Positions 29 to 33,775 of a stretch of 33,957 bases of DNA are shown here, piece after piece. Source of the DNA: a virus. The translations under genes were made by a program, and so were the position numbers. The first letter of the stretch is position 1. Every line of letters begins with the position of its first letter. The notes below the pieces were generated by a model. That model made no database searches, was not told where the DNA came from, and was given only the letters and a program-made list of their open reading frames with translations. The stretch lies in IMG/VR virus record IMGVR_UViG_3300031659_000043, positions 1 through 33,957 of that record; one strand, written 5' to 3'.

Positions 29-310
29 ATGGCAAAAACAAAAAAGGTTGTGGACCTTAAACCACAAAACATAACAAAAGAAGAGTTAGAAAGCTTACAA
101 GCACTTGTAAACAATCTTAATAGAGCTCAAATGGAAATTGGTAATTTAGAAAGTAGAAAGCACGGTATGCTACATCAAGTTACTGGTCTACAAACTCAAA
201 TGCAAACTCTACAAAAATCTTTTGAAGATCTTTATGGGAAAGTAGATATTAACATTAATGATGGTGCTATAGCGTACCCTGAAGATGTCGAAGCTGATAA
301 GAAAGATTAG
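29..310 (+). CDS. Small coiled-coil protein, function unknown
   Basis: This 93-residue protein has a basic N-terminus (MAKTKKVVDLK), a predicted long helix over about residues 17-70 with regular Leu/Met/Val spacing and many Gln and Glu residues, and an acidic C-terminus. That layout suggests an oligomerising coiled coil. It ends in TAG and overlaps the next gene by 26 bases, so the two are probably translated in series. I do not recognise the family. Its place just before the packaging genes suggests an assembly or packaging accessory, but that is inferred from position only. Confidence 0.75.
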   Translation: MAKTKKVVDLKPQNITKEELESLQALVNNLNRAQMEIGNLESRKHGMLHQVTGLQTQMQTLQKSFEDLYGKVDININDGAIAYPEDVEADKKD

Positions 311-506
311 TATAGGTAAAGATTATAAGAATGACGCCATGCACTATGCCGTAGGGCAAGAAGTGTATGGTGGTCATACTATATGTGATATTATTGAAGA
401 GGAAAGTAAGTTTAGTGTTTATATTAAAAAAGGTAAAGATGTACTGCCTTGGAAAGACTTTAATAAGAACATGGCTGTTTCTGTAGAGTATAATTTACAA
501 TACTAA
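285..506 (+). CDS. Small beta-rich protein, function unknown
   Basis: This 73-residue protein alternates short hydrophobic and charged stretches (for example KFSVYIKKGKDVLPW), which suggests a small beta-sheet domain. It has no signal peptide, membrane segment or cysteine pair. Its start lies inside the preceding gene, and its stop shares a base with the next start (TAATG), a tight coupled arrangement typical of real phage genes. I do not recognise the family and see no catalytic motif. Confidence 0.7.
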   Translation: MSKLIRKISIGKDYKNDAMHYAVGQEVYGGHTICDIIEEESKFSVYIKKGKDVLPWKDFNKNMAVSVEYNLQY

Positions 507-1084
507 TGAAGAGTGTTTACAACTTTGTTGTGGCACCTTTAAATTCTAGATACAACAATACAAAAAATATAGACGGTAAAGAGCTGATAGTTAACACTGA
601 GATATTCAGCCATCAACACGTTAGTAGAGAAGCTATAGTTAAATCAATACCTACAGTTGGTGATACAGATATAAAAATTGGTGATACAGTTATAGTGCAT
701 CACAACGTATTTAGAAGGTGGCATAATCAGCTTGGTATAGAGAAAAATAGTAGAGGTTATATTGACGAAGAAACATACTTAGTACAACCAGATCAAATAT
801 TCTTATACAAAGATACTGAATGGCAAGCGCAAAAAGGATATTGTTTTGTAGCACCAGTAAAATCTACAGACAAACTAAATGTAGATAAAGAAAAACCTTT
901 AGTTGGTATTGTCAAACACACTGATGGTACGGTTAACAAAGGTGATTTAATAGGTTTTAGACCTAGCTCGGAATACGAGTTTATTATAGATGGTCAAAAA
1001 CTATATAGAGTTTTATCAAATTTTATTACAATCAAATATGAATATCAAGGAGACGAAGAAGAGTATAATCCAAGCTGGACATAA
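506..1084 (+). CDS. Probable co-chaperonin with two GroES-like domains
   Basis: The 192 residues read as two consecutive GroES-like folds. In the first (about 5-102), VVAPLNSRY resembles the GroES opening strand. A loop with the hydrophobic triplet L-I-V (GKELIVNT) sits where the GroEL-binding mobile loop carries I-V-L. Then come KIGDTVIV near residue 60 and YLVQPDQIFLY (91-101), like GroES GDIVxF and EYLxLxExDILA. The second (about 111-180) repeats the scheme: GYCFVAPV, KPLVGIVK, NKGDLIGF and KLYRVLSNFITI, with no long mobile loop. A co-chaperonin works with host GroEL, and phages such as T4 (gp31) carry one to fold their capsid protein. The position ahead of terminase and capsid genes fits that role. 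The assignment rests on motif order, not a search. GroES is usually a single domain of about 95 residues. Confidence 0.55.
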   Translation: MKSVYNFVVAPLNSRYNNTKNIDGKELIVNTEIFSHQHVSREAIVKSIPTVGDTDIKIGDTVIVHHNVFRRWHNQLGIEKNSRGYIDEETYLVQPDQIFLYKDTEWQAQKGYCFVAPVKSTDKLNVDKEKPLVGIVKHTDGTVNKGDLIGFRPSSEYEFIIDGQKLYRVLSNFITIKYEYQGDEEEYNPSWT

Positions 1085-1310
1085 AGCTGTTGAGGAACTT
1101 ATTAAGGTTGCTAAAGAAGCCATTGTTGATTCAGACGACGACTTAACAGCTGACAAACTAAAAAATGCCGCAGCAACAAAGAAACTAGCTATATTTGATG
1201 CGTTTGAAATACTAAACAGAATACAAGAAGAAGAAGACTTGTTGAACAACAAACCTAAAGAAGTAGAAAAACAAGCGTTTAAAGGTTTTGCAGAAGGTAG
1301 ATCTAGATAA
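1038..1310 (+). CDS. Probable terminase small subunit
   Basis: This is a 90-residue, almost entirely helical acidic protein with AGHKAVEELIKVAKEA, DDLTADKLKNAAATKKLAI and DAFEILNRIQEEE as successive helices. It sits directly before the large terminase with overlapping stop and start (TAATG), the usual place of the small subunit, which recognises phage DNA and regulates the packaging motor. The helices match my memory of small-terminase-like proteins of marine phages. I chose the ATG giving a 47-base overlap with the upstream gene. An in-frame ATG at 990 would add 16 residues and double the overlap. A non-terminase helical accessory protein remains possible. Confidence 0.6.
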   Translation: MNIKETKKSIIQAGHKAVEELIKVAKEAIVDSDDDLTADKLKNAAATKKLAIFDAFEILNRIQEEEDLLNNKPKEVEKQAFKGFAEGRSR

Positions 1311-3523
1311 TGTACAAGCAAAGTTTATACAACGTTGTTGAACCTATTAAGAAAACTACAATTAGTAGACTTAATAAAGGTAAGAAATGGGATTATGGTT
1401 ATAACAAAGAGCATGATCTTGTAGTTATATCTAGGAATGGTCAAATAGGTGAGATATACGAGATACAGAATTTTAAAATAGCGTTGCCAAAAGTAGGTAG
1501 TGTGTATAGCAACAAAGAAAAAAAATGGAAACAATTTGAATATCCTAAAGAACTATCAAGACTTAAAAGCATATTTGACTGGAAAGCCTACCCAGAACAA
1601 AACAAAGAACAATGGCACGAGTACATTGACGAAGAGTTTAAACGAAGAGATGAAGGCTTTTGGTTTAATAATAATGGGACGAATACCTACATTACTGGTA
1701 CTCATTACATGTACTTGCAATGGAGCAAGATTGATGTAGGTGCGCCAGATTTTAGAGAAGCAAATAGACTGTTCTATATATTCTGGGAAGCGTGTAAAGC
1801 GGATAAGAGATGCTACGGTATGTGCTATCTTAAAAACAGAAGATCTGGATTTTCTTTTATGTCCTCTGCTGAGACAGTTAATCAAGCTACAATTTCAACA
1901 GATTCAAGGTTTGGTGTTTTATCTAAAACAGGAGCTGATGCTAAGAAAATGTTTACCGACAAAATTGTACCTATATCAATTAACTACCCGTTTTTCTTTA
2001 GTCCTATTCAAGATGGTATGGATCGGCCTAAATCCGAACTTGCCTATAGAGTACCTGCGTCTAAGTTTACTAGAAAGAAGATTACAACAAACGAAAAGCT
2101 AGAAGAAATAGAAGGGCTAGATACAACTATAGACTGGAAAAATACAGGTGATAATAGTTATGATGGTGAAAAGCTACAACTACTAGTACACGATGAAAGT
2201 GGTAAGTGGGAAAGACCAGACAATATCTTAAACAACTGGAGAGTTACAAAGACATGCCTTAGACTAGGTAGTAGAATTATAGGTAAGTGTATGATGGGAT
2301 CGACATCAAACTCTTTAGATAAAGGAGGTGATAACTTTAAAAAATTATACAATGCCTCAGATGTTACAAAACGAAACAGAAATGGACAGACAGCGTCTGG
2401 TTTATATTCTCTTTTTATCCCAATGGAGTGGAACTACGAAGGATTTATTGATGAACACGGAAGTCCAGTCTTCGATAGTCCAGACCATGATGTCTTTGAC
2501 CCACAAGGAGAGTTAATAGATATAGGCGTTGTAGAGAACTGGCAAAATGAAGCTGATGGTTTAAAAGGTGATCAAGATGCTTTAAATGAATTTTATAGAC
2601 AATTTCCTAGAACTACAGAGCACGCATTTAGAGATGAGACTAAAAATAGTATATTCAACTTAGTTAAACTATATGAGCAAATAGATTACAACGAAGAAAT
2701 GTCTAGAACATTAGGTATAACTCAAGGTAATTTTCAGTGGGTAAATGGTGTAAAAGACAGTCAAGTTATATTCTATCCAGATAAAAAAGGTAGATTTAAA
2801 GTAAGCTGGGTACCACCAGTAAACATGCAAAACAATTGTATTATTAAAAATGGTGTTAAATGGCCTGGCAATGAGCACATGGGCTCTTTTGGTTGTGATA
2901 GCTACGATATATCAGGAACAGTGGATGGTGTTGGATCAAAAGGAGCTTTGCACGGTTTAACTAAGTTCAGCATGGAAGATGCTCCAGCTAACACGTTTTT
3001 CTTAGAGTATTTAGCAAGACCACAAACGGCAGAGATATTCTTTGAAGATATTTTAATGGCTTGTATATTTTATGGTATGCCTATACTAGCAGAGAATAAT
3101 AAACCTCGTTTATTGTATTATTTCAGAAGACGTGGTTACAGAGGTTTTAGTATGAACAGGCCTGATAAAATATGGAATAAACTATCAGTTGCAGAAAAAG
3201 AAGTTGGTGGAATACCTAATTCAAGTGAAGATATAAAACAAGCTCACGCTGCAGCTATAGAAATGTACATTAACGATCACGTTGGTATAAAAAAAGATGG
3301 ATCAACAGGTAATTGTTATTTTAATGAATTACTAAACGATTGGGCAAGATTTGATATAAACAAAAGAACAAAGCATGATGCATCTATTAGCTCTGGATTA
3401 GCTATTATGGCTAACAATAGACATCTTTACAGGCCAAATGCCCCAGCACAAAAACCTAAACTAAATATAAATATTGCTAAGTATACGAACAAAGGCAATA
3501 CGTCTAAATTAATTAAAAAATAA
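1310..3523 (+). CDS. terL: Terminase large subunit (packaging ATPase-nuclease)
   Basis: This 737-residue protein should be the motor that pumps DNA into the prohead and cuts it. An N-terminal region rich in aromatic residues leads into the ATPase. The Walker A position reads LKNRRSGFS (residues 174-182) and lacks the usual GKS or GKT. Walker B is clear at LQLLVHDE (D295, E296), followed by a motif-III-like GSTSNSLDKGG. The RNase H-like nuclease half starts at FGCDSYDISG (D530, D533) and has a late acidic site at KHDASISSGLA (D690). The order of ATPase then nuclease, and the portal gene two bases downstream, make the call firm. The deviant Walker A resembles the relaxed P-loops seen in some phage terminases, with K175 or R177/R178 as candidate phosphate contacts. 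Confidence 0.92.
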   Translation: MYKQSLYNVVEPIKKTTISRLNKGKKWDYGYNKEHDLVVISRNGQIGEIYEIQNFKIALPKVGSVYSNKEKKWKQFEYPKELSRLKSIFDWKAYPEQNKEQWHEYIDEEFKRRDEGFWFNNNGTNTYITGTHYMYLQWSKIDVGAPDFREANRLFYIFWEACKADKRCYGMCYLKNRRSGFSFMSSAETVNQATISTDSRFGVLSKTGADAKKMFTDKIVPISINYPFFFSPIQDGMDRPKSELAYRVPASKFTRKKITTNEKLEEIEGLDTTIDWKNTGDNSYDGEKLQLLVHDESGKWERPDNILNNWRVTKTCLRLGSRIIGKCMMGSTSNSLDKGGDNFKKLYNASDVTKRNRNGQTASGLYSLFIPMEWNYEGFIDEHGSPVFDSPDHDVFDPQGELIDIGVVENWQNEADGLKGDQDALNEFYRQFPRTTEHAFRDETKNSIFNLVKLYEQIDYNEEMSRTLGITQGNFQWVNGVKDSQVIFYPDKKGRFKVSWVPPVNMQNNCIIKNGVKWPGNEHMGSFGCDSYDISGTVDGVGSKGALHGLTKFSMEDAPANTFFLEYLARPQTAEIFFEDILMACIFYGMPILAENNKPRLLYYFRRRGYRGFSMNRPDKIWNKLSVAEKEVGGIPNSSEDIKQAHAAAIEMYINDHVGIKKDGSTGNCYFNELLNDWARFDINKRTKHDASISSGLAIMANNRHLYRPNAPAQKPKLNINIAKYTNKGNTSKLIKK

Positions 3524-3525
3524 AT

Positions 3526-5931
3526 ATGGCAGAGTCTGTTATAAATAAATATTTTCCAAGTCAAGCTGTTAGTGATATTGAAAAAATGAGCTATGAGTAT
3601 GGTTTAAAAGTAGCGCAAGCTATTGAGTCTGAGTGGTTTCACGCTGATAAAGGTTCCTCTAGATATAATTCGCACAGTAATAATTTTCACAAACTAAGGT
3701 TGTATGCTAGAGGAGAACAATCTATACAAAAATACAAGGATGAGTTATCTATAAACGGTGATTTGTCCTATCTTAATTTAGACTGGAAACCAGTACCTAT
3801 TATACCTAAATTTGTTGACATAGTTGTAAACGGTATTGCAGAAAGAACTTACGATATAAAAGCTTACTCTCAAGATCCATACGGTGTTGAAAAACGTACT
3901 GAGTATATGGAAACTATACTTGGTGATATGGACACTCAAGAGTTAAACGCTTTTACAGAGCAAGCTTTTGGCATATCAATGAAAGAGAGTGACATGGAAG
4001 AGTTACCTGGTTCTAAAGAAGAACTAGAACTTCATATGCAGATAAATTATAAACAAGCTGTTGAAATTGCAGAAGAACAAGCTTTATCTGTTTTGTTTGA
4101 AGGTAGTGATTATGAATTGATAAAGAAAAGATTTTATTACGATTTAACAGTTCTAGGTATTGGAGCTGCAAAAACTACTTTTAATACTTCTGAAGGTGTT
4201 GTTATAGATTATGTTGATCCAGCAAATTTAGTTTACTCTTACACTGAATCACCTTATTTTGAAGATTTATATTACGTTGGTGAGGTTAAACACATACCGG
4301 TTAATGAACTTGCAAAACAGTTTCCACATTTAACCGAGGTTGATCTTGAAGATATATTAAAAAACAAAAGCTCTTATAAAAATAGTTATAATAGTAATGA
4401 TAACGATAACAATAAAGTTCAAGTTTTATACTTTAATTATAAAACATATATGAACCAGGTTTACAAAGTGAAAGAAACTGGTAGTGGTGCTGATAAAGTT
4501 TTACCAAAAGATGACACTTTTAATCCACCAGAAAACATGGAAGGTGGGTTTGGGAAGCTACAAAGATCTATTGAATGTCTTTACGACGGTGCTGTAATTT
4601 TAGGAACAGACAAGCTATTGAAATGGGAAATGGCTAAAAACATGGTAAGACCTAAGAGCGACTTTACTAAAGTTAAAATGAATTATAGCATTGTAGCTCC
4701 ACGTATGTATAAAGGTAAGATAGAAAGTCTAGTTAGTCGTATTACTGGTTTCGCTGACATGATACAACTTACACACTTAAAACTACAACAAGTACTGTCA
4801 CGCATGGTACCGGATGGTGTTTATTTAGATGCTGATGGTTTAGCTGAAATAGATTTAGGCAACGGCACAAACTACAACCCGCAAGAAGCTTTAAATATGT
4901 TTTTCCAAACAGGATCTGTTATAGGTAGATCAATGACCTCTGAAGGAGATCCAAACCCTGGCAAAGTGCCAATTCAAGAAATACAATCAGGTTCGGGTGG
5001 ACAGAAGATGCAGAGTTTAATTGGCACGTATAACTACTACATGCAAATGATAAGAGATACCACTGGATTAAACGAAGCTAGAGATGCTGCAACGCCTGAC
5101 CCTAAGGCTTTGGTAGGTGTTCAAAAACTTGCTGCCGCTAATTCTAACACAGCAACAAGACATATATTACAAGCTGGTTTGTTTTTAACATCAGAAGTTG
5201 CAGAGTGTTTATCGCTTAGAATATCTGACATATTAGAGTATTCACCAACAAAAGATGCTTTTATACAGCAAATAGGTAATCACAATGTTGCAACACTTGA
5301 AGAAATGGCTAGTTTGCATTTATATGACTTTGGTATATTTTTAGAGTTAACTCCTGATGACGAAGAAAAAGCAATGTTAGAGCAAAACATACAAATGGCA
5401 ATACAACAACAGCTTATAGAGTTGACTGACGCTATTGATCTTAGAGAAATAAAAAACATAAAGCTTGCTAATCAGTTGCTAAAAATACGTAGAAAAAGAA
5501 AGCTAGAAAGAGACCAGCAAATGCAACAACAAAACATCCAAGCTCAGTCTCAAGCAAACATACAAGCACAGCAAGCATCTGCTCAAATGGAGTTGCAAAA
5601 ACAACAAGCGCTTAGCCAGTCTCAAGCGCAGTTAGAACAAGTAAAAGCACAGCTTAACCAACAAAAACAAGCTCAAGAAGTAATGTACAAAAAAGAGTTG
5701 ATGCAGTTAGAGTTTCAGATGAACATGCAGCTTAAATCTATGGAGGTAGAAGCTACAAAAACAAAAGAAACACAAAAAGAAGATCGTAAAGACGAAAGAA
5801 CAAGAATACAAGCCACTCAACAAAGTGAACTTATAGATCAAAGAAAAAGTGAAAAAGCACCTAAAAACTTTGAGTCTGCAGGTAATGATTCTTTAGGAGG
5901 CTTTGACTTAGGTTCTTTTGATCCTAGGTAA
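3526..5931 (+). CDS. Portal protein with long Gln-rich C-terminal tail
   Basis: This 801-residue protein should form the dodecameric ring at the head vertex through which DNA enters and leaves. It opens with FPSQAVSDIEKMSYEYGLKV, followed by KLRLYARGEQSIQKYK and LNLDWKPVPIIPKFVDI, which I associate with portals of crAss-like and uncultured marine phages. The middle alternates strands and helices. Residues from about 660 to 745 are very rich in Gln, Ala and Met in a continuous coiled-coil pattern, and the last 50 residues are charged. The long tail probably forms the helical barrel pointing into the capsid, as in P22 gp1, or contacts ejection proteins. Size and position between terminase and scaffold/capsid support the call. 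Confidence 0.88.
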   Translation: MAESVINKYFPSQAVSDIEKMSYEYGLKVAQAIESEWFHADKGSSRYNSHSNNFHKLRLYARGEQSIQKYKDELSINGDLSYLNLDWKPVPIIPKFVDIVVNGIAERTYDIKAYSQDPYGVEKRTEYMETILGDMDTQELNAFTEQAFGISMKESDMEELPGSKEELELHMQINYKQAVEIAEEQALSVLFEGSDYELIKKRFYYDLTVLGIGAAKTTFNTSEGVVIDYVDPANLVYSYTESPYFEDLYYVGEVKHIPVNELAKQFPHLTEVDLEDILKNKSSYKNSYNSNDNDNNKVQVLYFNYKTYMNQVYKVKETGSGADKVLPKDDTFNPPENMEGGFGKLQRSIECLYDGAVILGTDKLLKWEMAKNMVRPKSDFTKVKMNYSIVAPRMYKGKIESLVSRITGFADMIQLTHLKLQQVLSRMVPDGVYLDADGLAEIDLGNGTNYNPQEALNMFFQTGSVIGRSMTSEGDPNPGKVPIQEIQSGSGGQKMQSLIGTYNYYMQMIRDTTGLNEARDAATPDPKALVGVQKLAAANSNTATRHILQAGLFLTSEVAECLSLRISDILEYSPTKDAFIQQIGNHNVATLEEMASLHLYDFGIFLELTPDDEEKAMLEQNIQMAIQQQLIELTDAIDLREIKNIKLANQLLKIRRKRKLERDQQMQQQNIQAQSQANIQAQQASAQMELQKQQALSQSQAQLEQVKAQLNQQKQAQEVMYKKELMQLEFQMNMQLKSMEVEATKTKETQKEDRKDERTRIQATQQSELIDQRKSEKAPKNFESAGNDSLGGFDLGSFDPR

Positions 5932-7190: not shown

Positions 7191-8675
7191 ATGGCAATTA
7201 CTGCAGGAGGTAATTTGAATAGTGTGGCTGCATCAGTGCAACAAACACTAGCTACAAATTACATCGATTTTACAAGCACAACCACTGCTGGTTGGGCACA
7301 ACAATATTTACCAGATCTTATGGAAAAAGAAGCTGAGGTTTTTGGACAAAGAACAATCTCAGGATTTCTTGCACAAGTAGGAGCTGAAGAGGCTATGACA
7401 GCTGACCAAGTTGTTTGGTCTGAGCAGTCAAGACTACATTTATCATACATTGGAACAGTAGACGCTGATGGTGATGTTAATGGTACTTTTACAGTTACTA
7501 CTGACATAGATGGTAATGCACTAACTACTAATCACGGTATTAGAGTAAATGATATAGTATTAATAGCACAAGCTGGTGTTGTGGTTAAAGCACTATGTGT
7601 TGAAACTCCAAACTCAGCTGTTGTTTCAGTTGAGCCTTATGCTACAACTGCTTTATCAACTTTATCTGATGGCGCTGCTACTTTACTAGTTATTGGTTCT
7701 GAATACGGAAAAGGACAATCTTATTCTGATGTTACTGGTACTTTTAATTCTGAAAGAAGAACAGCTTTAACACCACAATTTAAATCTTTTACTAACAAGC
7801 CAATCATCATGAAAGATTACTACGAGATTTCTGGATCTGATGCTTCGCAAGTTGGTTGGGTAGAAATATCTGGTGAAGAAGGACAAAACGGTTACTTATG
7901 GTACTTAAAAGCTGAAGGTGATACTAGAGCTAGATTTACTGATTACTTAGAAATGGCTATGCTAGAATCTGAGTTATCAGATGATCTTTCTGCTATCGGT
8001 TTTGCTGATAAGCAAATTAGAGGTACTGCTGATTCTGGTGCAAGTGGATCTGGTACTGAAGGTTTATTCGCTGCTATTGAGTCTAGAGGTAATGTTACTT
8101 CTGGTATTACTGGTGTTAATGCTGCTACTGATTTAGCTGAATTTGATGCTATCTTAGCAGAATTTGATAAGCAAGGTGCTATTGAAGAAAACATGATGTT
8201 TGTAAATAGAGCTACGTCTCTTGCAATGGATGACATGCTTGCTTCAATGAATTCTTACGGTGCTGGTGGTACTTCTTACGGAGTATTCAACAACTCTGAA
8301 GATATGGCATTAAACTTAGGTTTCTCTGGTTTCAGACGTGGATCTTACGATTTCTACAAGTCAGACATGAGATACTTAAATGACAAAGCTACAAGAGGTG
8401 GTATTAATGACAGAGCAGGTAGCGCAGCTATCCGTGGGGTTATTATTCCAGCTGGAGTATCTTCTGTTTACGATCAAGCTTTAGGAAAGAACTTAAAAAG
8501 ACCTTTCTTACATGTTAGATATAGAGCTTCACAAACTGACGACCGAAGAATGAAATCTTGGGTTACTGGTTCTGTTGGAGCAACTACATCTGCGCTTGAC
8601 GCAATGCAGATACACATGCTAACTGAAAGATGTTTAATTACACAAGGTGCTAACAATTTCATGTTAATGAAATAA
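7191..8675 (+). CDS. Major capsid protein
   Basis: This 494-residue protein, located right after the scaffold gene, has the size and composition of a HK97-fold shell protein. The N-terminal segment (TTAGWAQQYLPDLMEKEAEV) resembles the N-arm of crAss-like and marine-phage capsid proteins. The centre holds a Gly/Thr/Val-rich beta region (about 85-165). The conserved-looking core includes KSFTNKPIIMKDYYEISGSD and a long helix around LEMAMLESELSDDL. The last third prefers C-ending Phe and Tyr codons, unlike neighbouring genes, as expected for the most abundant virion protein. A strong terminator follows immediately. No protease or fused domain is seen. Confidence 0.9.
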   Translation: MAITAGGNLNSVAASVQQTLATNYIDFTSTTTAGWAQQYLPDLMEKEAEVFGQRTISGFLAQVGAEEAMTADQVVWSEQSRLHLSYIGTVDADGDVNGTFTVTTDIDGNALTTNHGIRVNDIVLIAQAGVVVKALCVETPNSAVVSVEPYATTALSTLSDGAATLLVIGSEYGKGQSYSDVTGTFNSERRTALTPQFKSFTNKPIIMKDYYEISGSDASQVGWVEISGEEGQNGYLWYLKAEGDTRARFTDYLEMAMLESELSDDLSAIGFADKQIRGTADSGASGSGTEGLFAAIESRGNVTSGITGVNAATDLAEFDAILAEFDKQGAIEENMMFVNRATSLAMDDMLASMNSYGAGGTSYGVFNNSEDMALNLGFSGFRRGSYDFYKSDMRYLNDKATRGGINDRAGSAAIRGVIIPAGVSSVYDQALGKNLKRPFLHVRYRASQTDDRRMKSWVTGSVGATTSALDAMQIHMLTERCLITQGANNFMLMK

Positions 8676-25140: not shown

Positions 25141-28100
25141 ATGAATAAATTTCAAATAGGAGATAATATTTTTGATGTTGACGAAAGAGATATGGAGTTT
25201 TTTAAACAAAAATATCCTAACGCTAAACCTGTAACTGAAAATCAAGATGATATTTCTGCAGGTGAGTTTTTTACAGACTTGTTTACAACTATACCTCAAG
25301 CTGGGTTAAAAGCTGTTGGAGGGATTGTTAATTACCTTGAAGCTGGAGAAAGAACATTAAGAGATCATATGTATCGTGATCTAGATGATGAGACAAAAGT
25401 TGAAAAATTTAAAGAGCTTGAAGATGGTGGTTTTTCTTTATTATCAAAAGGTGATGATAATGTTTTTTCTAATGCTGGAGAGTATTTTGATCAATTTGAT
25501 GTTAAAGCTGACAAAGCAATAACAGAAGAGCTAGACATTACAGATCCTTCAACATGGGGTAGGGCTGGTGCTAGAGCTGTTTTAGCTGGAGTAGAATCTT
25601 GGCCTTCAATTGCTGCGGCTTACATGGGTGCGCCTGCTATGTTGGCTTTAGGCGTTTCATATGCTGGTAATAAATTTGAAGAAGAATTAGAAAAAAATCC
25701 TAAAGCAAGTTTAAATCAATTGTTTCTAAATGCAACTGGTACTGGTGCTATTGAAGCTGGTTTTGAAATGGCAACTAGAGGTTTGTTTAAAAGAGCTGGT
25801 TTAATAGGCGCAGGAGGAAGTGTAAAAGCTGCTAAAGCTATTGTAAAAGGTGGTTTTATGGAATTATCTAAAAATTTAACATCTGGTTTTGTTACTGAAG
25901 GTGCTTCTGAAATGGCTACAGAGCTAGCTAACAAGTGGTGGGATAGTCAAACGATAGAAGGAAGAGAAATGCCTAGCCTAGCTCAAATGAAATACCAACT
26001 AGGTGACGCGTTTTTAATCGGTGGATTAGTTGGTGGTACTATAAGTGGTGTTGGGGAAATAAGCGGTAAAAGCAAAGCCGCTGCAGATAAAGCTACAGTA
26101 ACTTTAATGCCTTTAGAAGAGAAAAAGAGATTTAACGAGTCTACAGTAAAGCTTAATAATTTGTATAATGATAGAAGAAAAGCTAAGACAGATGAAGCTA
26201 AAGCTATTGTAGATAAAGAAATATCTAAAGAAACAAATATAGTTGAAAAAATTAAAAACGACAATTTTAACTATTTACAAAATTTAGATTCAAAAGAAAT
26301 AAAACAATACAGTAAAAACATTGTTGAAATTAATAAGTTAAATTCACAAATAAAAGAAAACTCTAACAATGCAACAATACGTGATGTTAATAGTAAAAAA
26401 ATTGAAGAAATAAACAAGTCTAACGTTGGCATGCTACAAAAGTCTAAAGTTAACCTTGCAGATAAACAATTTCAAAACATACAAGATATAGCTGTACAAT
26501 TAGAAAAAGCTGGTGGTAAAAAAATTAATGTTATTAAAGGTAATACTAAAGATTTTCAAGAATTTAGTAAACAGCGTGGTATAGAGCAGGACTTTGATTA
26601 TGATCGTAGATACGGTGGTATGCTACCAATCTTAGATGATGGTGGTAACGTTACTAGTTTAGATATTTTTATAAATGAAGAGACAGTTTTAAGAGATGGT
26701 AAAGTAAATACATCTGCACATGAATTTTTACATGCTGCTGTTTTTGCTACTTTAAAACAAAATATCGAAGCTGGTGAAGTTTTAGGTGGTGCTGTGCTAA
26801 AAGCTCTTGGAGCTAACAAAGCAACATTAAGAGAAGGTAGTGATTTTAACGAAAGAATAAACTCTTATAGTAAAGAAGAAGGTGGTGGTGAAGAAATATT
26901 AACTATAACTGGTGAGGCAATAAGCAATAATGAAATAAATCTTAATGAAGGTTTTATTGGTGGTTTAAAAGATGCTTTCCGTAGGTTTGGCCAAAAACAT
27001 CTTAATTTCGACATGAAGTTTGACACAGATCAAGATATATTAAACTTTGTAAAAGATTATTCTAGAGCTATAAAAGATCCTAGCAAGCTAAACAAAGCTT
27101 TAATAAAAGTTGCTGCGTTAGGTGCAGAAGGTAAATTAGCTCCTAATAAAGTAAAAGCAGATCCAAAGCTAGCAGTGTCTAAAGAAGCTTCTGAAAAAGT
27201 ACAAAGTATATACGAAAAGGAAGGAGCTACAGGTGCTTTTGATATAATAAGTGAGTTTAAACCTATTGTTAATAAAATTGTTGAAAAGCGTAGCCAAGCT
27301 CCAAATTTTGATAGAGAGTTATTAACTAGTGAAATAGAAATTGGTAAACGTGGTATACTAGACCTTATATCTGAGTACAAACCAGAGTCTGGAGTGCCAC
27401 TAGCCGCTTTTATTAATAAGTTTTTACCATCAAGAGCTATTGAAGCATCAAGAAGAGTTTTAGGTGAAGAGTTTACAGAAGATGTTTCTGAAAGAGTTGA
27501 TATAGCAGCCGATGAGGTTGCTGAAGTTGATGTTCAAGCTAAACCAAAGAAAAAGAAAATTGTATTAGCAGATAGATTGCGTGTTGAAAACAAAGTTGAC
27601 ACAGCTGTTAAAAAAATATTTCCTAGTTTAAATCTTAAAAAATTAGATTTTAAATCTTTAAAAGATTTAACACCGGAAATAACTGGTGAGATGTTTGGTA
27701 TATCACCTAAAAAATTATTAAACAACGCTAATATAACAAAAGTTGAATTACAAGCTGCGCAGATGTTTATTAATAAAAATGCAGACTTGTTAATAGCAAT
27801 GCTACCAGAAGGAGCTACAGTTTCAGGTACATCTACGGGTGTTCAAAAAGTTTTGTTAGACGCTTTTTACACTAAATCAAATAGAGCAAGAGCGGCTAAA
27901 ACAGGTAGTAAAGCAGGTTTGGCTGTTCAAGTTAAAAATCCTAATATTACTAAAGTAGAGTTTTTAGAAACATTTGGTATAATAAATGGTAAACCAGTTC
28001 GTACTGATAGAAACACATCGTCAAGAGTTCTAGCCTTAGCAAAACAAACTGGTAAAATGATGAGTAACCAGGCGGTGAGAAAAATATTATTAAGTGATAA

Positions 28101-31100
28101 AAATAGCCCCGCCCATGTGCTTGGTGTTCTTGAAGATGGTAAGCCAAAAATGATGTGGTCTCAACAATCAAGTTTAAATGCTGAGCAAATAAAAAAACAA
28201 GGAGCTTCTGAAAGAAACTTAGAACAAAGAGCTATTGGTGAAGAGTTTTTAGAGTCACAAAAAGACTGGAACCAAAGTGTTAAAGATGCTGGTGAAAAGC
28301 CTTTAGACATGATAAGCGATGAAGGTGTTGATTATTATCTTCAACTTTTATATTATGGGTTAGGACCATTTCTACCAGAAAGCTTTTTTAGGCACAATGG
28401 TACTTATACCGGTACATCTAAACCTATAAAAGATAAAGATGGTAACACTATAAAAAGAACAAGAACAAGAAATTATCCATTTATAAATGTTAAGCAAGTT
28501 CAAAACTCTGTTGACAATGTTTTACAAAATAGTGATTTTGTAGGTTTTGCCGAGCCAGACGTAGATATAGAAAATGCTATGCAAAGAGATTCTTACGAAA
28601 CGCTTTTAAAAATGGATCCTAAAAAACGTCAAGAGCTATTAGAATCTAAAGCTCGTGGTTTTAAAAAAATATGGCAAGCTTTTGATGAGTTAATTGAATC
28701 AGACCCTCAACTTGGTATACCTTTAGTTGGAGCTTTAATGTCTTCTGTTAGCGCTACTCAACTTCACTTTGGAAGAACAGCATCTATATTTAGTTTTTAT
28801 AACACTTTAAACGAAGCTAACGTTGAAGAACACGCTGGACCAGCAAGTGATATGAATAAGTTTTTGTTTAATAGAGCTATAGATGGAAATTTATTTGGAG
28901 AGTTAAATTATTTTGACGGAGCTGTACAAAGTTTTATTCAAGGAGATTTACCAGCAAGATTTGACACTCCAGTTTTAAAAGGAAAAGGTTATAATTATGT
29001 TAAAAATGCACCGCCAGAATATGCTTATGATATTTTATTAGGATTAAAACCTATATGGATAAGATATTGGAACGCAAATGTTAATAATAACGGTAGAGAT
29101 TTTGACAAAGGTAAGGTTGGTGGAATAGATCCAAACGTAATAGTATTATTAAATGACAAAACAATAGCTCAAGAGTTTGGCATAGATGTTGATCCAGATT
29201 TGTTAACACCTTACGTAGTAATGATGCAGCAAGATTTATTAGCAGATATATTTTTAGGCAAAACAACAAGTGCTGATGCTAAAATAGCTATAACAAATTT
29301 TGCAAATGTAAAAATAAAACAACAAGTAGGTCCTTTAAAAATTAAAGAAAAAGCTATTAAACAAGGTAGAATGATGGCGTCTAAAAAACCCAAAGGTATT
29401 ACTGTTTTAGATTTTGATGACACATTAGCTACTAGTAAGTCTTTAATTAGATACACAAAACCTGATGGTGAAGAAGGAACATTAACGCCAGAGCAATACG
29501 CTAGTACGTATGAAGATCTTTTAGACAAAGGTTATGAATTTGATTTTTCTGAATTTAACAAAGTTGTAGATGGTAGAATAGCTCCATTGTTTCAAAAAGC
29601 ATTAAAATTACAAGGCAAGTTTGGTTCTGAAAATATGTTTGTATTAACGGCAAGACCTGCACAATCTCAAAAAGCTATATTTGAATTTTTAAAAGCTAAC
29701 GGTTTAAACATACCTTTAAAAAACATAACTGGATTAGGTAATTCTACCGCAGAAGCAAAAGCACTTTGGATGGCTGAAAAAGTTGGTGAAGGTTATAATG
29801 ATTTTTATTTTGCTGATGATGCACTGCAAAACGTACAAGCTGTTGACAATGTGCTAGAACAATTTGATGTTAAAAGAAAAGTACAACAAGCTAAAATACA
29901 ATTTAGCAAAGATTTAGATAAAAATTTTAATGATATACTAGAAAATGTAACTGGAATTGAATCTAAAAAGCAATTTGCAGCTACAAAAGCTAGAAAACGT
30001 GGGGATAGTAAAGGTAAGTTCAGATTATTTATACCACCATCTCATGAAGATTTTGTTGGATTATTATATAACTTTATGGGTAAAGGCAAAGAAGGTAATG
30101 CTCATAGAGACTTTTTTGAACAAGCTTTAGTTAGACCGTTAAATAGAGCATACAAAGAAATAGACACTGCTAAACAAGCTGTAGCAAACGACTACAAGGA
30201 GCTAAACAAGCAAATGGCTGACGTTAATAAAAAACTTACTCAAAAAACTCCTGATGGAGACTTTACATATCAAGATGCTATAAGAGTATACTTGTGGGAT
30301 AAACATGGTTATAAAATACCAGGATTAAGTGATGTTGATCAAGTTGATTTAGTTGATATAGTAGGTAAAGACCCTAGTTTACAAGCTTATGCCGAAGCAT
30401 TAAATATTATATCTAAACAAGAAAAGTATGTAGATCCAGGTCAAAACTGGGAAACTGGTAATATAAGAATAGACTTAGTGGATGCAACTGGTAGAGTTGG
30501 TAGGGTTAGTTATTTTGCTGAGTTTCAAGAAAGTGCTGATGTTATATTTTCTGAAACAAACTTAAATAAAATTGAAGCTGCATACGGGCCTAATTTTAGA
30601 AGTGCTTTAGAAGACATGCTTCACAGGGTTAAAACAGGTATTAACAGACCAAAAGGTGCTAGCGCACAACCAAATATGTTTATGAACTGGTTAAACGCTT
30701 CTGTTGCAGGTGTTATGTTTTTTAACACTAGATCCGCACTACTACAGCAAATGTCTAACGTAAATTATTTAAACTTTGCTGATAACAATATATTTACAGC
30801 GGGTCTGGCGTTTGCTAACCAACCACAATATTGGAAAGACTTTGCAATGATATTTAATTCAGACATGCTAAAGCAAAGACGTGGTGGTTTACAAACAGAT
30901 ATTAACGGTGCTGAACTTGCAGAGGCTATTAAAAAAGCTAGGCCAAATAATATGTTTGACCAAGTAGCTATTATAACTGGTAAGGCACTTAGACTTGGAT
31001 TTTTACCTACACAAATTGGTGATAACATTGCAATTGCAACTGGTGGTGCTGCTTTTTATAGAAACAGAGTTAATAAATACATTAAAGATGGTTTAAGTCA

Positions 31101-32061
31101 GAAAGAAGCTGAAACAAAAGCATTTACTGATTTTCAAAATATAACACAATCAACACAACAGTCAGCAAGACCAGATATGACATCTCAGCAGCAAGCATCT
31201 TGGATAGGTAAATTAGTACTAAACTTTTTAAACACACCGTCACAATACAATAGAATAATTAAAAAAGCTGGTTCTGATATTTTAAATAAAAGAATAACAC
31301 CACCTAACACCTCATTAACGCAAAGCAACATGTCTAACGCATCTAGAATGTTGTATTATGGTGCTGCACAAAATTTAATATTTTATAGTTTACAAACGGC
31401 TTTATTTGCAGTTATGTTTGGTGGTGATGATGAAGATGAAGATAAAAGAGTTGAAGCTTACTTAACTAAAAAACAAAGAGTTATACAAGGAAGTATAGAC
31501 ACTATATTAAGAGGTTCTGGTATATATGGCGTTGCGGTTTCTACATTAAAAAACATGGCTATTAAATTTATGGAGCAAAGAGAAAAAGGCTATAATAAAG
31601 ATGAAAGCGCTGTTGTAATGGAAATGTTAAACTTTTCACCAGTTGTAGGTATCAAGGCTAGAAGAATTGTTAATGCTGAAAAAACTTTAAATTACAATAA
31701 AAAAGTAATTAAAGAGATGGAAACGTTTGATATAGACAACCCTGCCTGGTCTGCTGTTACAAACTATACACAAACTATAACTACAGCGCCTGTAAACAAA
31801 ATATATCAAAAAACAATAAACCTTAGAAACGCTGCGGATAATGATTACACGGCTATGCAAAGATTATTATTTCTTAGTGGTTATACTACTTGGGCTTTAA
31901 ATCTTGGTGAAACAAAAAAAATGGAGGAGGTTAAAGAAGAAATTAAAAGAAAAAAAGAAGTTGAAAAGAAAAAAGAAAAAGAAAAGAAAAAACAAAATAA
32001 AAAAACAACTAGTAGAATAATAAGAAGAAAAGTTAGTAAAAGAACTCCTAAAAGAAGATAA
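25141..32061 (+). CDS. Giant polyvalent internal virion protein
   Basis: This 2306-residue protein is probably ejected with the DNA. It has a short N-terminal charged domain and Gly/Ala-rich hydrophobic segments (about 141-176, 201-250, 288-309) able to enter membranes. A zincin-like site HEFLH (527-531) comes next, with a possible third ligand in GEEILTITGEA (583-593). A stretch resembling sigma-70 region 2 follows (about 700-775). Further on is a HAD-like domain: DFDDT (1424-1428), LTARP (1502-1506), K1540 or K1547, and ADD (1558-1560). After further helical regions come a hydrophobic segment (about 2073-2095) and a Lys/Arg-rich tail (about 2259-2306). Multi-domain phage proteins of this sort have been described as polyvalent proteins. 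Third in the ejection set, it parallels T7 gp16. Activities are inferred from motifs only. Confidence 0.8.
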   Translation: MNKFQIGDNIFDVDERDMEFFKQKYPNAKPVTENQDDISAGEFFTDLFTTIPQAGLKAVGGIVNYLEAGERTLRDHMYRDLDDETKVEKFKELEDGGFSLLSKGDDNVFSNAGEYFDQFDVKADKAITEELDITDPSTWGRAGARAVLAGVESWPSIAAAYMGAPAMLALGVSYAGNKFEEELEKNPKASLNQLFLNATGTGAIEAGFEMATRGLFKRAGLIGAGGSVKAAKAIVKGGFMELSKNLTSGFVTEGASEMATELANKWWDSQTIEGREMPSLAQMKYQLGDAFLIGGLVGGTISGVGEISGKSKAAADKATVTLMPLEEKKRFNESTVKLNNLYNDRRKAKTDEAKAIVDKEISKETNIVEKIKNDNFNYLQNLDSKEIKQYSKNIVEINKLNSQIKENSNNATIRDVNSKKIEEINKSNVGMLQKSKVNLADKQFQNIQDIAVQLEKAGGKKINVIKGNTKDFQEFSKQRGIEQDFDYDRRYGGMLPILDDGGNVTSLDIFINEETVLRDGKVNTSAHEFLHAAVFATLKQNIEAGEVLGGAVLKALGANKATLREGSDFNERINSYSKEEGGGEEILTITGEAISNNEINLNEGFIGGLKDAFRRFGQKHLNFDMKFDTDQDILNFVKDYSRAIKDPSKLNKALIKVAALGAEGKLAPNKVKADPKLAVSKEASEKVQSIYEKEGATGAFDIISEFKPIVNKIVEKRSQAPNFDRELLTSEIEIGKRGILDLISEYKPESGVPLAAFINKFLPSRAIEASRRVLGEEFTEDVSERVDIAADEVAEVDVQAKPKKKKIVLADRLRVENKVDTAVKKIFPSLNLKKLDFKSLKDLTPEITGEMFGISPKKLLNNANITKVELQAAQMFINKNADLLIAMLPEGATVSGTSTGVQKVLLDAFYTKSNRARAAKTGSKAGLAVQVKNPNITKVEFLETFGIINGKPVRTDRNTSSRVLALAKQTGKMMSNQAVRKILLSDKNSPAHVLGVLEDGKPKMMWSQQSSLNAEQIKKQGASERNLEQRAIGEEFLESQKDWNQSVKDAGEKPLDMISDEGVDYYLQLLYYGLGPFLPESFFRHNGTYTGTSKPIKDKDGNTIKRTRTRNYPFINVKQVQNSVDNVLQNSDFVGFAEPDVDIENAMQRDSYETLLKMDPKKRQELLESKARGFKKIWQAFDELIESDPQLGIPLVGALMSSVSATQLHFGRTASIFSFYNTLNEANVEEHAGPASDMNKFLFNRAIDGNLFGELNYFDGAVQSFIQGDLPARFDTPVLKGKGYNYVKNAPPEYAYDILLGLKPIWIRYWNANVNNNGRDFDKGKVGGIDPNVIVLLNDKTIAQEFGIDVDPDLLTPYVVMMQQDLLADIFLGKTTSADAKIAITNFANVKIKQQVGPLKIKEKAIKQGRMMASKKPKGITVLDFDDTLATSKSLIRYTKPDGEEGTLTPEQYASTYEDLLDKGYEFDFSEFNKVVDGRIAPLFQKALKLQGKFGSENMFVLTARPAQSQKAIFEFLKANGLNIPLKNITGLGNSTAEAKALWMAEKVGEGYNDFYFADDALQNVQAVDNVLEQFDVKRKVQQAKIQFSKDLDKNFNDILENVTGIESKKQFAATKARKRGDSKGKFRLFIPPSHEDFVGLLYNFMGKGKEGNAHRDFFEQALVRPLNRAYKEIDTAKQAVANDYKELNKQMADVNKKLTQKTPDGDFTYQDAIRVYLWDKHGYKIPGLSDVDQVDLVDIVGKDPSLQAYAEALNIISKQEKYVDPGQNWETGNIRIDLVDATGRVGRVSYFAEFQESADVIFSETNLNKIEAAYGPNFRSALEDMLHRVKTGINRPKGASAQPNMFMNWLNASVAGVMFFNTRSALLQQMSNVNYLNFADNNIFTAGLAFANQPQYWKDFAMIFNSDMLKQRRGGLQTDINGAELAEAIKKARPNNMFDQVAIITGKALRLGFLPTQIGDNIAIATGGAAFYRNRVNKYIKDGLSQKEAETKAFTDFQNITQSTQQSARPDMTSQQQASWIGKLVLNFLNTPSQYNRIIKKAGSDILNKRITPPNTSLTQSNMSNASRMLYYGAAQNLIFYSLQTALFAVMFGGDDEDEDKRVEAYLTKKQRVIQGSIDTILRGSGIYGVAVSTLKNMAIKFMEQREKGYNKDESAVVMEMLNFSPVVGIKARRIVNAEKTLNYNKKVIKEMETFDIDNPAWSAVTNYTQTITTAPVNKIYQKTINLRNAADNDYTAMQRLLFLSGYTTWALNLGETKKMEEVKEEIKRKKEVEKKKEKEKKKQNKKTTSRIIRRKVSKRTPKRR

Positions 32062-33415: not shown

Positions 33416-33775
33416 ATGGAAAAAAACAATACTACTTGGAAGCTTTTTATTGGCTATTTACTAATACTACTCTTAATGGTAGGTAGCGCACAAGCTAATG
33501 CTCAAATAGTAGTAACACACTTTAACGCTGCTTGGAACGATCCAAATAAAGTGGCTTATATAGGTAAGTTGACTGACTGTGATATAGTTTATGTTGATAT
33601 TGCAGTTGCTCCAAAGTTACAAGAAAAACACGCAATAGTGGTTGTACCTACCGTTGTTATATTTAAAGATGGGGAAGAAGTAAAAAGGTTTCAAGCAGAT
33701 ATATCCTTTAGTATGAAGGCAACTAGAAAAGATATACAAGGGGTTATAGATGAATTATTAATGAGTGACTTTTAA
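33416..33775 (+). CDS. Exported thioredoxin-fold protein without active-site cysteines
   Basis: This 119-residue protein has an N-terminal signal (hydrophobic core about 10-23, likely cleavage at ANA-Q) and then a thioredoxin-like core: IVVTHFNAAW (strand and turn), DIVYVDIA, VVVPTVVIFKDGEEV with the cis-Pro site at V77-P78-T79, and a C-terminal helix. The usual WCGPCK reads W40-N-D-P-N-K45, so both redox cysteines are Asn while the flanking W, P and K remain. It therefore should not catalyse disulfide exchange and may bind or block a partner in the periplasm. The only mature cysteine is C55. It begins three bases after the membrane protein stop codon region, suggesting one unit. Confidence 0.72.
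   Translation: MEKNNTTWKLFIGYLLILLLMVGSAQANAQIVVTHFNAAWNDPNKVAYIGKLTDCDIVYVDIAVAPKLQEKHAIVVVPTVVIFKDGEEVKRFQADISFSMKATRKDIQGVIDELLMSDF

Follow-up and report, generated by a model that had tools for sequence, protein, structure and literature searches.

Near the start of the window, the 33,957-nucleotide stretch of DNA analyzed here, from a virus of marine bacteria, an open reading frame at 506..1084 (+ strand; 192 amino acids, ATG to TAA with the stop codon within the coordinates) encodes a tandem GroES-like co-chaperonin. Two GroES-like domains joined head to tail in one chain are a well supported fold for this protein, judged from its predicted structure and from sequence profiles. The tandem GroES is a real, widespread, and under-described phage variant. 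Most of its carriers that we sampled also encode GroEL and a one-domain GroES, pointing to a folding machine of three parts (GroEL, normal GroES, and tandem GroES) that these phages supply themselves.

A two-domain GroES-like protein family

The reading frame matches phrog_13932, "co-chaperonin GroES" (E 3.3e-22; residues 1-172 against profile positions 1-193 of 200), as do all 86 aligned members of the tandem-protein family. The GroES identity is thus already known from PHROGs and RefSeq annotation, and the "chaperonin cpn10" reported as a Pervagoviridae core protein (PMC8776804) is probably the same gene. Both annotations concern this family and are silent on the two domains, the one-sided loop, and the combination of GroEL, GroES, and tandem protein. 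The open-access papers searched do not describe tandem GroES in phages, its two-domain nature, or the three-gene set, which is weak evidence of novelty because subscription journals and preprints lay outside the scope; the only fused pairs of GroES units described in those papers are plastid and apicoplast cases.

As a single sequence, the window protein found no match in Pfam, Cpn10 included, or in a phmmer search of the PDB, and the family profile gave only weak PDB matches to bacterial GroES (E 0.08). An LpxA match in the same profile search is a chance hit. Pfam Cpn10 scores above its cut-off for the proteins of phi40:1 and phi18:3. Comparison with seven close relatives indicates purifying selection (dN 0.04-0.08, dS 0.45-0.92), with codon changes that are mostly silent. 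Relatives at 60-100% identity number at least 586 in IMG/VR, encoded on at least 500 contigs, and a second, freshwater-type group holds 508 more. Cultivated carriers are Cellulophaga phages phi38:1, phi40:1, and Calle (Pervagoviridae), 68 Flavobacterium elemo records, and Maribacter phage Panino; more distant ones are Cellulophaga phages phi18:3, phi13:2, phi19:3, and phi46:3 (Pachyviridae). Six contigs with the tandem gene (L261, L264, L269, L271, L272, and L277) are binned as archaea or Alphaproteobacteria and are likely mis-binned phage DNA. Archaeal hosts, named in some contig titles as Woesearchaeota, Pacearchaeota, or Euryarchaeota, were rejected on the same grounds, mis-binning being the most likely explanation.

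AlphaFold2, run on the 86-sequence alignment, confidently predicts two domains (pLDDT 82.7, pTM 0.75). In a Foldseek search with the full-length model, 7ekq_R ranked first in the PDB (E 2.8e-4, 207 aligned columns, TM 0.54), and no other match fell below 0.001; the sequence table names 7ekq_R "Cpn20 co-chaperonin subunit". This chain is Chlamydomonas CPN20, which consists of two fused GroES domains, and it aligned along the whole tandem chain; the PDB matches that followed were GroES chains, each covering one domain. The highest-ranking named match in a comparison with viral predictions was the phi18:3 "chaperonin cpn10". Another viral entry, BFVD A0A516L046 (304 aa), aligns with both domains of the model from end to end and may represent an extended form, perhaps with three domains.

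Domain 1 (506..823; residues 1-106) is a predicted GroES barrel with a long mobile loop. Modeled separately it reached a pLDDT of 89.1, and its best 25 PDB hits were all GroES/Cpn10 (best E 5e-3 with probability 1.00; probabilities mostly 0.9-1.0). Domain 2 (824..1081; residues 107-192) is a predicted GroES barrel with a shortened loop. The barrel thus appears in both halves of the model and no non-GroES fold was seen, in agreement with an earlier, sequence-only reading of this DNA that had proposed two successive GroES-like segments.

We compared a profile of host and phage GroES proteins with profiles of each half by using hhalign, with 100 column shuffles as the control. Both halves exceeded the shuffles, with a score of 38.0 for domain 2 (P 7.5e-7; shuffle maximum 16.0) and 28.0 for domain 1 (P 1.2e-4; shuffle maximum 18.1), and neither pointed to an unrelated family. 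As far as profiles go, support for GroES identity is strong in domain 2 and weak in domain 1. The sequence-only reading had also traced the GroES strand order in the letters themselves. The observation of two GroES-like segments is confirmed by relatives and predicted structure; the window sequence alone scored 2.2 and 5.2 bits for its halves against a GroES HMM, not above shuffles, so that a strand order traced by eye in this one sequence would not count as evidence. A distant relative, gp096 of phi18:3 (44.8 bits with the family HMM of the 86-sequence alignment), scored 14.5 bits in domain 1 and 30.8 bits in domain 2 against the same GroES HMM, values equaled by 0 of about 190 shuffles, and its second half is above the Pfam Cpn10 cut-off. 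These scores tie both halves of the family to GroES by sequence. Profiles of the two domains, compared directly with each other, did not match convincingly (E 0.023), a result that lends the tandem reading no support; the two have either over-diverged or come from different GroES ancestors.

One mobile loop, no roof, and a domain 1 insertion

In domain 1, residues 12-41 (539..628) form the mobile-loop region, a long loop with a hairpin and the hydrophobic triplet L27-I28-V29 (584-592). Three hydrophobic residues occupy these positions in 79 of 86 relatives, as L-I-L or L-I-V in most. AlphaFold2 confidence is lowest here, falling to a pLDDT of 65 in the block 31-40. The shortened loop of domain 2 comprises residues 120-131 (863-898). 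Loop length among all relatives aligned is 27-31 residues in domain 1 versus 11-14 in domain 2, and the domain 2 loop segment has no hydrophobic triplet, so the earlier observation of a mobile-loop-like stretch with L-I-V only in the first half is borne out. In the phi18:3 alignment, domain 1 and domain 2 each show a stretch resembling GroES (KTESGLEL; KKPSLIYIPEDNKEK), so that loss of the second loop probably took place in the lineage of the window. Such a loss would fix which domain docks.

The roof hairpin of GroES would not fit into either domain, since the segments between core strands 2 and 3 (residues 48-57 and 139-147) are too short. T4 gp31 likewise lacks this hairpin, so its absence is not decisive against membership among the co-chaperonins. 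Domain 1 also contains a specific insertion starting HHNVF (698..775; residues 65-90) that has no known GroES counterpart and whose residues H66, N67, and F69 are invariant across the 86-sequence alignment. We rejected the C-terminal tail EYNPSW as a functional motif, since it falls inside a 47-base overlap with the next gene and its conservation therefore has another cause.

Neighboring genes and phage-encoded chaperonins

Terminase, portal, and head genes come right after the tandem gene, which the sequence-only reading had likewise placed beside packaging and head genes. The conserved order, all on the + strand in the window, runs from a small reading frame of about 73 codons through the tandem gene (and a 90-aa reading frame) to terminase, portal, and head gene. 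The conserved small protein (285..506; 73 aa) overlaps the tandem gene by 1 base in the sequence TAATG; such a reading frame sits directly upstream in 80 of 85 relatives, with the 1-base overlap in 66. Family searches with this protein returned no confident match, and it is possibly a partner of the tandem co-chaperonin. It carries the motif IRKIS-G--YKN-AMHY, and phi18:3 has a different reading frame in its place.

Downstream, a helical-looking 90-aa reading frame (1038..1310) shares the 47 bases mentioned above with the 3' end of the tandem gene and, from its position, may encode the small terminase. It is followed by the terminase large subunit (1310..3523; phrog_6681, 3.7e-165), the portal protein (3526..5931; phrog_6547, 5.3e-151), and a 494-aa virion structural protein (7191..8675; phrog_13704, 4e-97). 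The last is a probable major capsid protein and would be a candidate client of the tandem co-chaperonin. The late-gene position of the tandem gene fits the idea of virion-protein clients. In phi40:1 and phi18:3 the tandem protein has no virion-proteomics annotation and neighboring proteins are annotated as detected; this absence of annotation would suit a helper better than a structural component.

We then considered 32 phage records with the tandem gene, taking PF00118 as GroEL and PF00166 as one-domain GroES. GroEL was found in 26 of the 32, and a separate one-domain GroES in the same 26. True absence from the other six was rejected: all six contigs stop before the expected site, ending 0.8-4.8 kb upstream of the tandem gene, and where this stretch is preserved in other members of the window's clade, GroEL starts 4.3-9.1 kb upstream. 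Record G011 breaks off 2.1 kb before the tandem gene and has GroEL near its other end. The closest relatives of the window encode GroEL (521 aa) and GroES (85 aa), overlapping by a few bases, about 5-6.5 kb before the tandem gene. In the window itself, a search found no GroES gene and its reading frames include no GroEL. This absence is uninformative, because the window is a fragment that starts 505 bases upstream of the tandem gene and so ends before their usual site. GroEL is uncommon across phages generally (192 of 50,697 records at 1e-30). The interpretation in the sequence-only reading is supported in part: a ring differing from host GroES in subunit count or binding valence would be one possibility, and its choice of host GroES and host GroEL for comparison is probably off given that carriers encode their own GroEL and one-domain GroES; most likely, the tandem protein works with these two rather than simply replacing host GroES.

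The phage GroELs are in most cases about 37-40% identical to E. coli GroEL and keep the ATPase aspartates D52, D87, and D398 wherever these can be aligned. Their face for GroES and substrate is altered, with L234 replaced by E or Q in most and L259 by K in seven, changes seen in the L299 and L300 GroELs and their relatives. Both L234Q and L259K occur on the GroES-docking face in the nearest relatives of the window, so standard loop docking is not assured. Unlike other lineages, phi18:3 (NC_021794) encodes the tandem protein (gp096) and a single GroES (gp080) and has no GroEL in its complete genome. The tandem protein is therefore not strictly dependent on phage GroEL, and the lid of phi18:3 must act on host GroEL. 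Among 19 records, the distances of tandem protein, GroES, and GroEL are correlated (Mantel 0.86 and 0.76); we rejected this as proof of contact, since co-inheritance and common descent would produce it. The GroEL of phi38:1 is made during infection (PMC13288928), and its methylated form was reported in free-virion samples (PMC13288928, Table 3), so phage GroEL may co-purify with or stay on phi38:1 particles. The GroEL and GroES of Maribacter phage Panino were noted previously (PMC11590407).

Proposed composition of the lid and comparison with known co-chaperonins

We consider it fairly likely that the tandem protein resembles Cpn20 in being one kind of subunit in a lid that the phage encodes, mixed with phage GroES and acting on phage GroEL for virion assembly. 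For the three proteins, we infer joint assembly, stoichiometry, and clients. As a co-chaperonin of the Cpn20 type, with two GroES barrels covalently linked, the protein would fill two adjacent places of a seven-domain lid, and phage one-domain GroES would take the remaining places atop phage GroEL. Domain 1 would dock on GroEL via its mobile loop and domain 2 would occupy a ring place without docking, such that k tandem chains in a mixed lid would leave 7-k docking loops. Both domains, like T4 gp31, are without a roof hairpin, which would leave the lid open on top and make the chamber roomier. The clients would be the large virion proteins of the phage. If this is true, the phages of a large marine and freshwater group carry a nearly self-sufficient folding machine.

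The mismatch between the plastid fused co-chaperonin and the seven-fold symmetry of GroEL is a long-standing puzzle. Phages would provide a second, apparently independent fused co-chaperonin, in a very common phage group, and the cultivated members (Cellulophaga phi38:1, phi40:1, and phi18:3, Flavobacterium elemo, and Maribacter Panino) would make the symmetry question testable in small recombinant systems. According to PMC5780408, citing Tsai et al. 2012, chloroplast CPN20/23 and CPN10 combine into functional seven-domain rings. Four chains make up the solved CPN11/20/23 assembly (PMC8889267); the 7ekq chain list gives one CPN11, one CPN23, and two CPN20, or seven domains. Cpn20 was known from chloroplasts only until it was found in Plasmodium, according to a 2013 paper (PMC3542282).

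Chloroplast and apicoplast Cpn20 (CPN20 and CPN23 of 7ekq; Arabidopsis and Plasmodium) resembles the phage protein in its two GroES barrels fused head to tail and in the one-domain Cpn10 and Cpn60 found alongside. However, it keeps a mobile loop and a roof in both domains (PMC3542282), whereas domain 2 of the phage protein is without the loop and neither phage domain has the roof. No sequence match to Cpn20 came up in the PDB search with the window protein, so the phage fusion is likely independent. The tandem protein works like plastid Cpn20 but is not one, since the domain 2 mobile loop and a sequence relation are missing. Tentatively, Bacteroidota phages may have evolved the chloroplast arrangement independently, with their own Cpn60, Cpn10, and fused two-domain subunit in an asymmetric seven-domain lid that loses one docking loop per fused subunit and makes fewer than seven GroEL contacts.

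T4 gp31 and other one-domain phage GroES proteins are also phage co-chaperonins with a loop longer than that of GroES and no roof loops, and the T4 capsid protein requires gp31 in order to fold (PMC6318259). Both gp31 and the tandem protein are expected to serve virion proteins. In contrast to the two-domain protein, whose phages also have a one-domain GroES, gp31 has one domain and forms a homoheptamer on host GroEL; it is only a weak structural match to the tandem model (1g31, E 0.59). Jumbo phages EL and AR9 share the possession of a phage GroEL, and the portions of the respective papers considered here (PMC7185714, PMC9598537) concern the GroEL-type ring, whereas the present phages have two kinds of lid subunit.

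The tandem protein might instead form a lid alone, as an alternative to one-domain GroES for particular clients, which we regard as unlikely. Three or four chains could form a ring of six or eight domains, or seven chains could do so with domain 2 stacked outside. Plant and Plasmodium Cpn20 are largely tetrameric and functional alone (PMC3542282), concatamers of six or eight domains are functional with GroEL (PMC5780408), and the tandem gene lies in the late head module, away from the GroEL-GroES pair. With one loop per chain, however, a three- or four-chain ring would offer only three or four loops to seven GroEL sites, and a one-domain GroES is present in every record complete enough to judge.

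A GroES fold repurposed as an assembly or packaging adaptor, acting with the 73-aa neighbor, terminase, or portal and not capping a chaperonin, is quite improbable in our estimation. The tight, conserved place between the 73-aa reading frame and terminase would suit such a role, as would the insertion confined to domain 1 with its invariant H66-N67-F69, and GroES rings do moonlight, in that CPN11/20/23 also caps the Clp protease (PMC8889267). Against this, most relatives (79 of 86) retain the triplet in the loop of domain 1, GroES always and GroEL usually accompany the tandem gene, and the protein is without the virion-proteomics annotation that its neighbors have in phi40:1 and phi18:3. We give very little weight to a decoy lid that, with a single loop for every two domains, would bind host GroEL and block or redirect it. 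Fewer loops and the lack of a GroEL gene in phi18:3 would agree with a decoy, but phi18:3 retains GroES-like loop sequence in both domains, fitting a working lid, the gene position is late and assembly-linked, and most carriers bring GroEL.

Two further genes lie toward the end of the window. A small protein with an N-terminal hydrophobic stretch (33416-33775) has a sub-threshold thioredoxin match (PF00085, 5e-4), and its active-site region reads AAWNDPNK, without CxxC. A 2306-aa protein (25141-32061), which has no Pfam match at 0.1, is probably a large internal or ejected virion protein.
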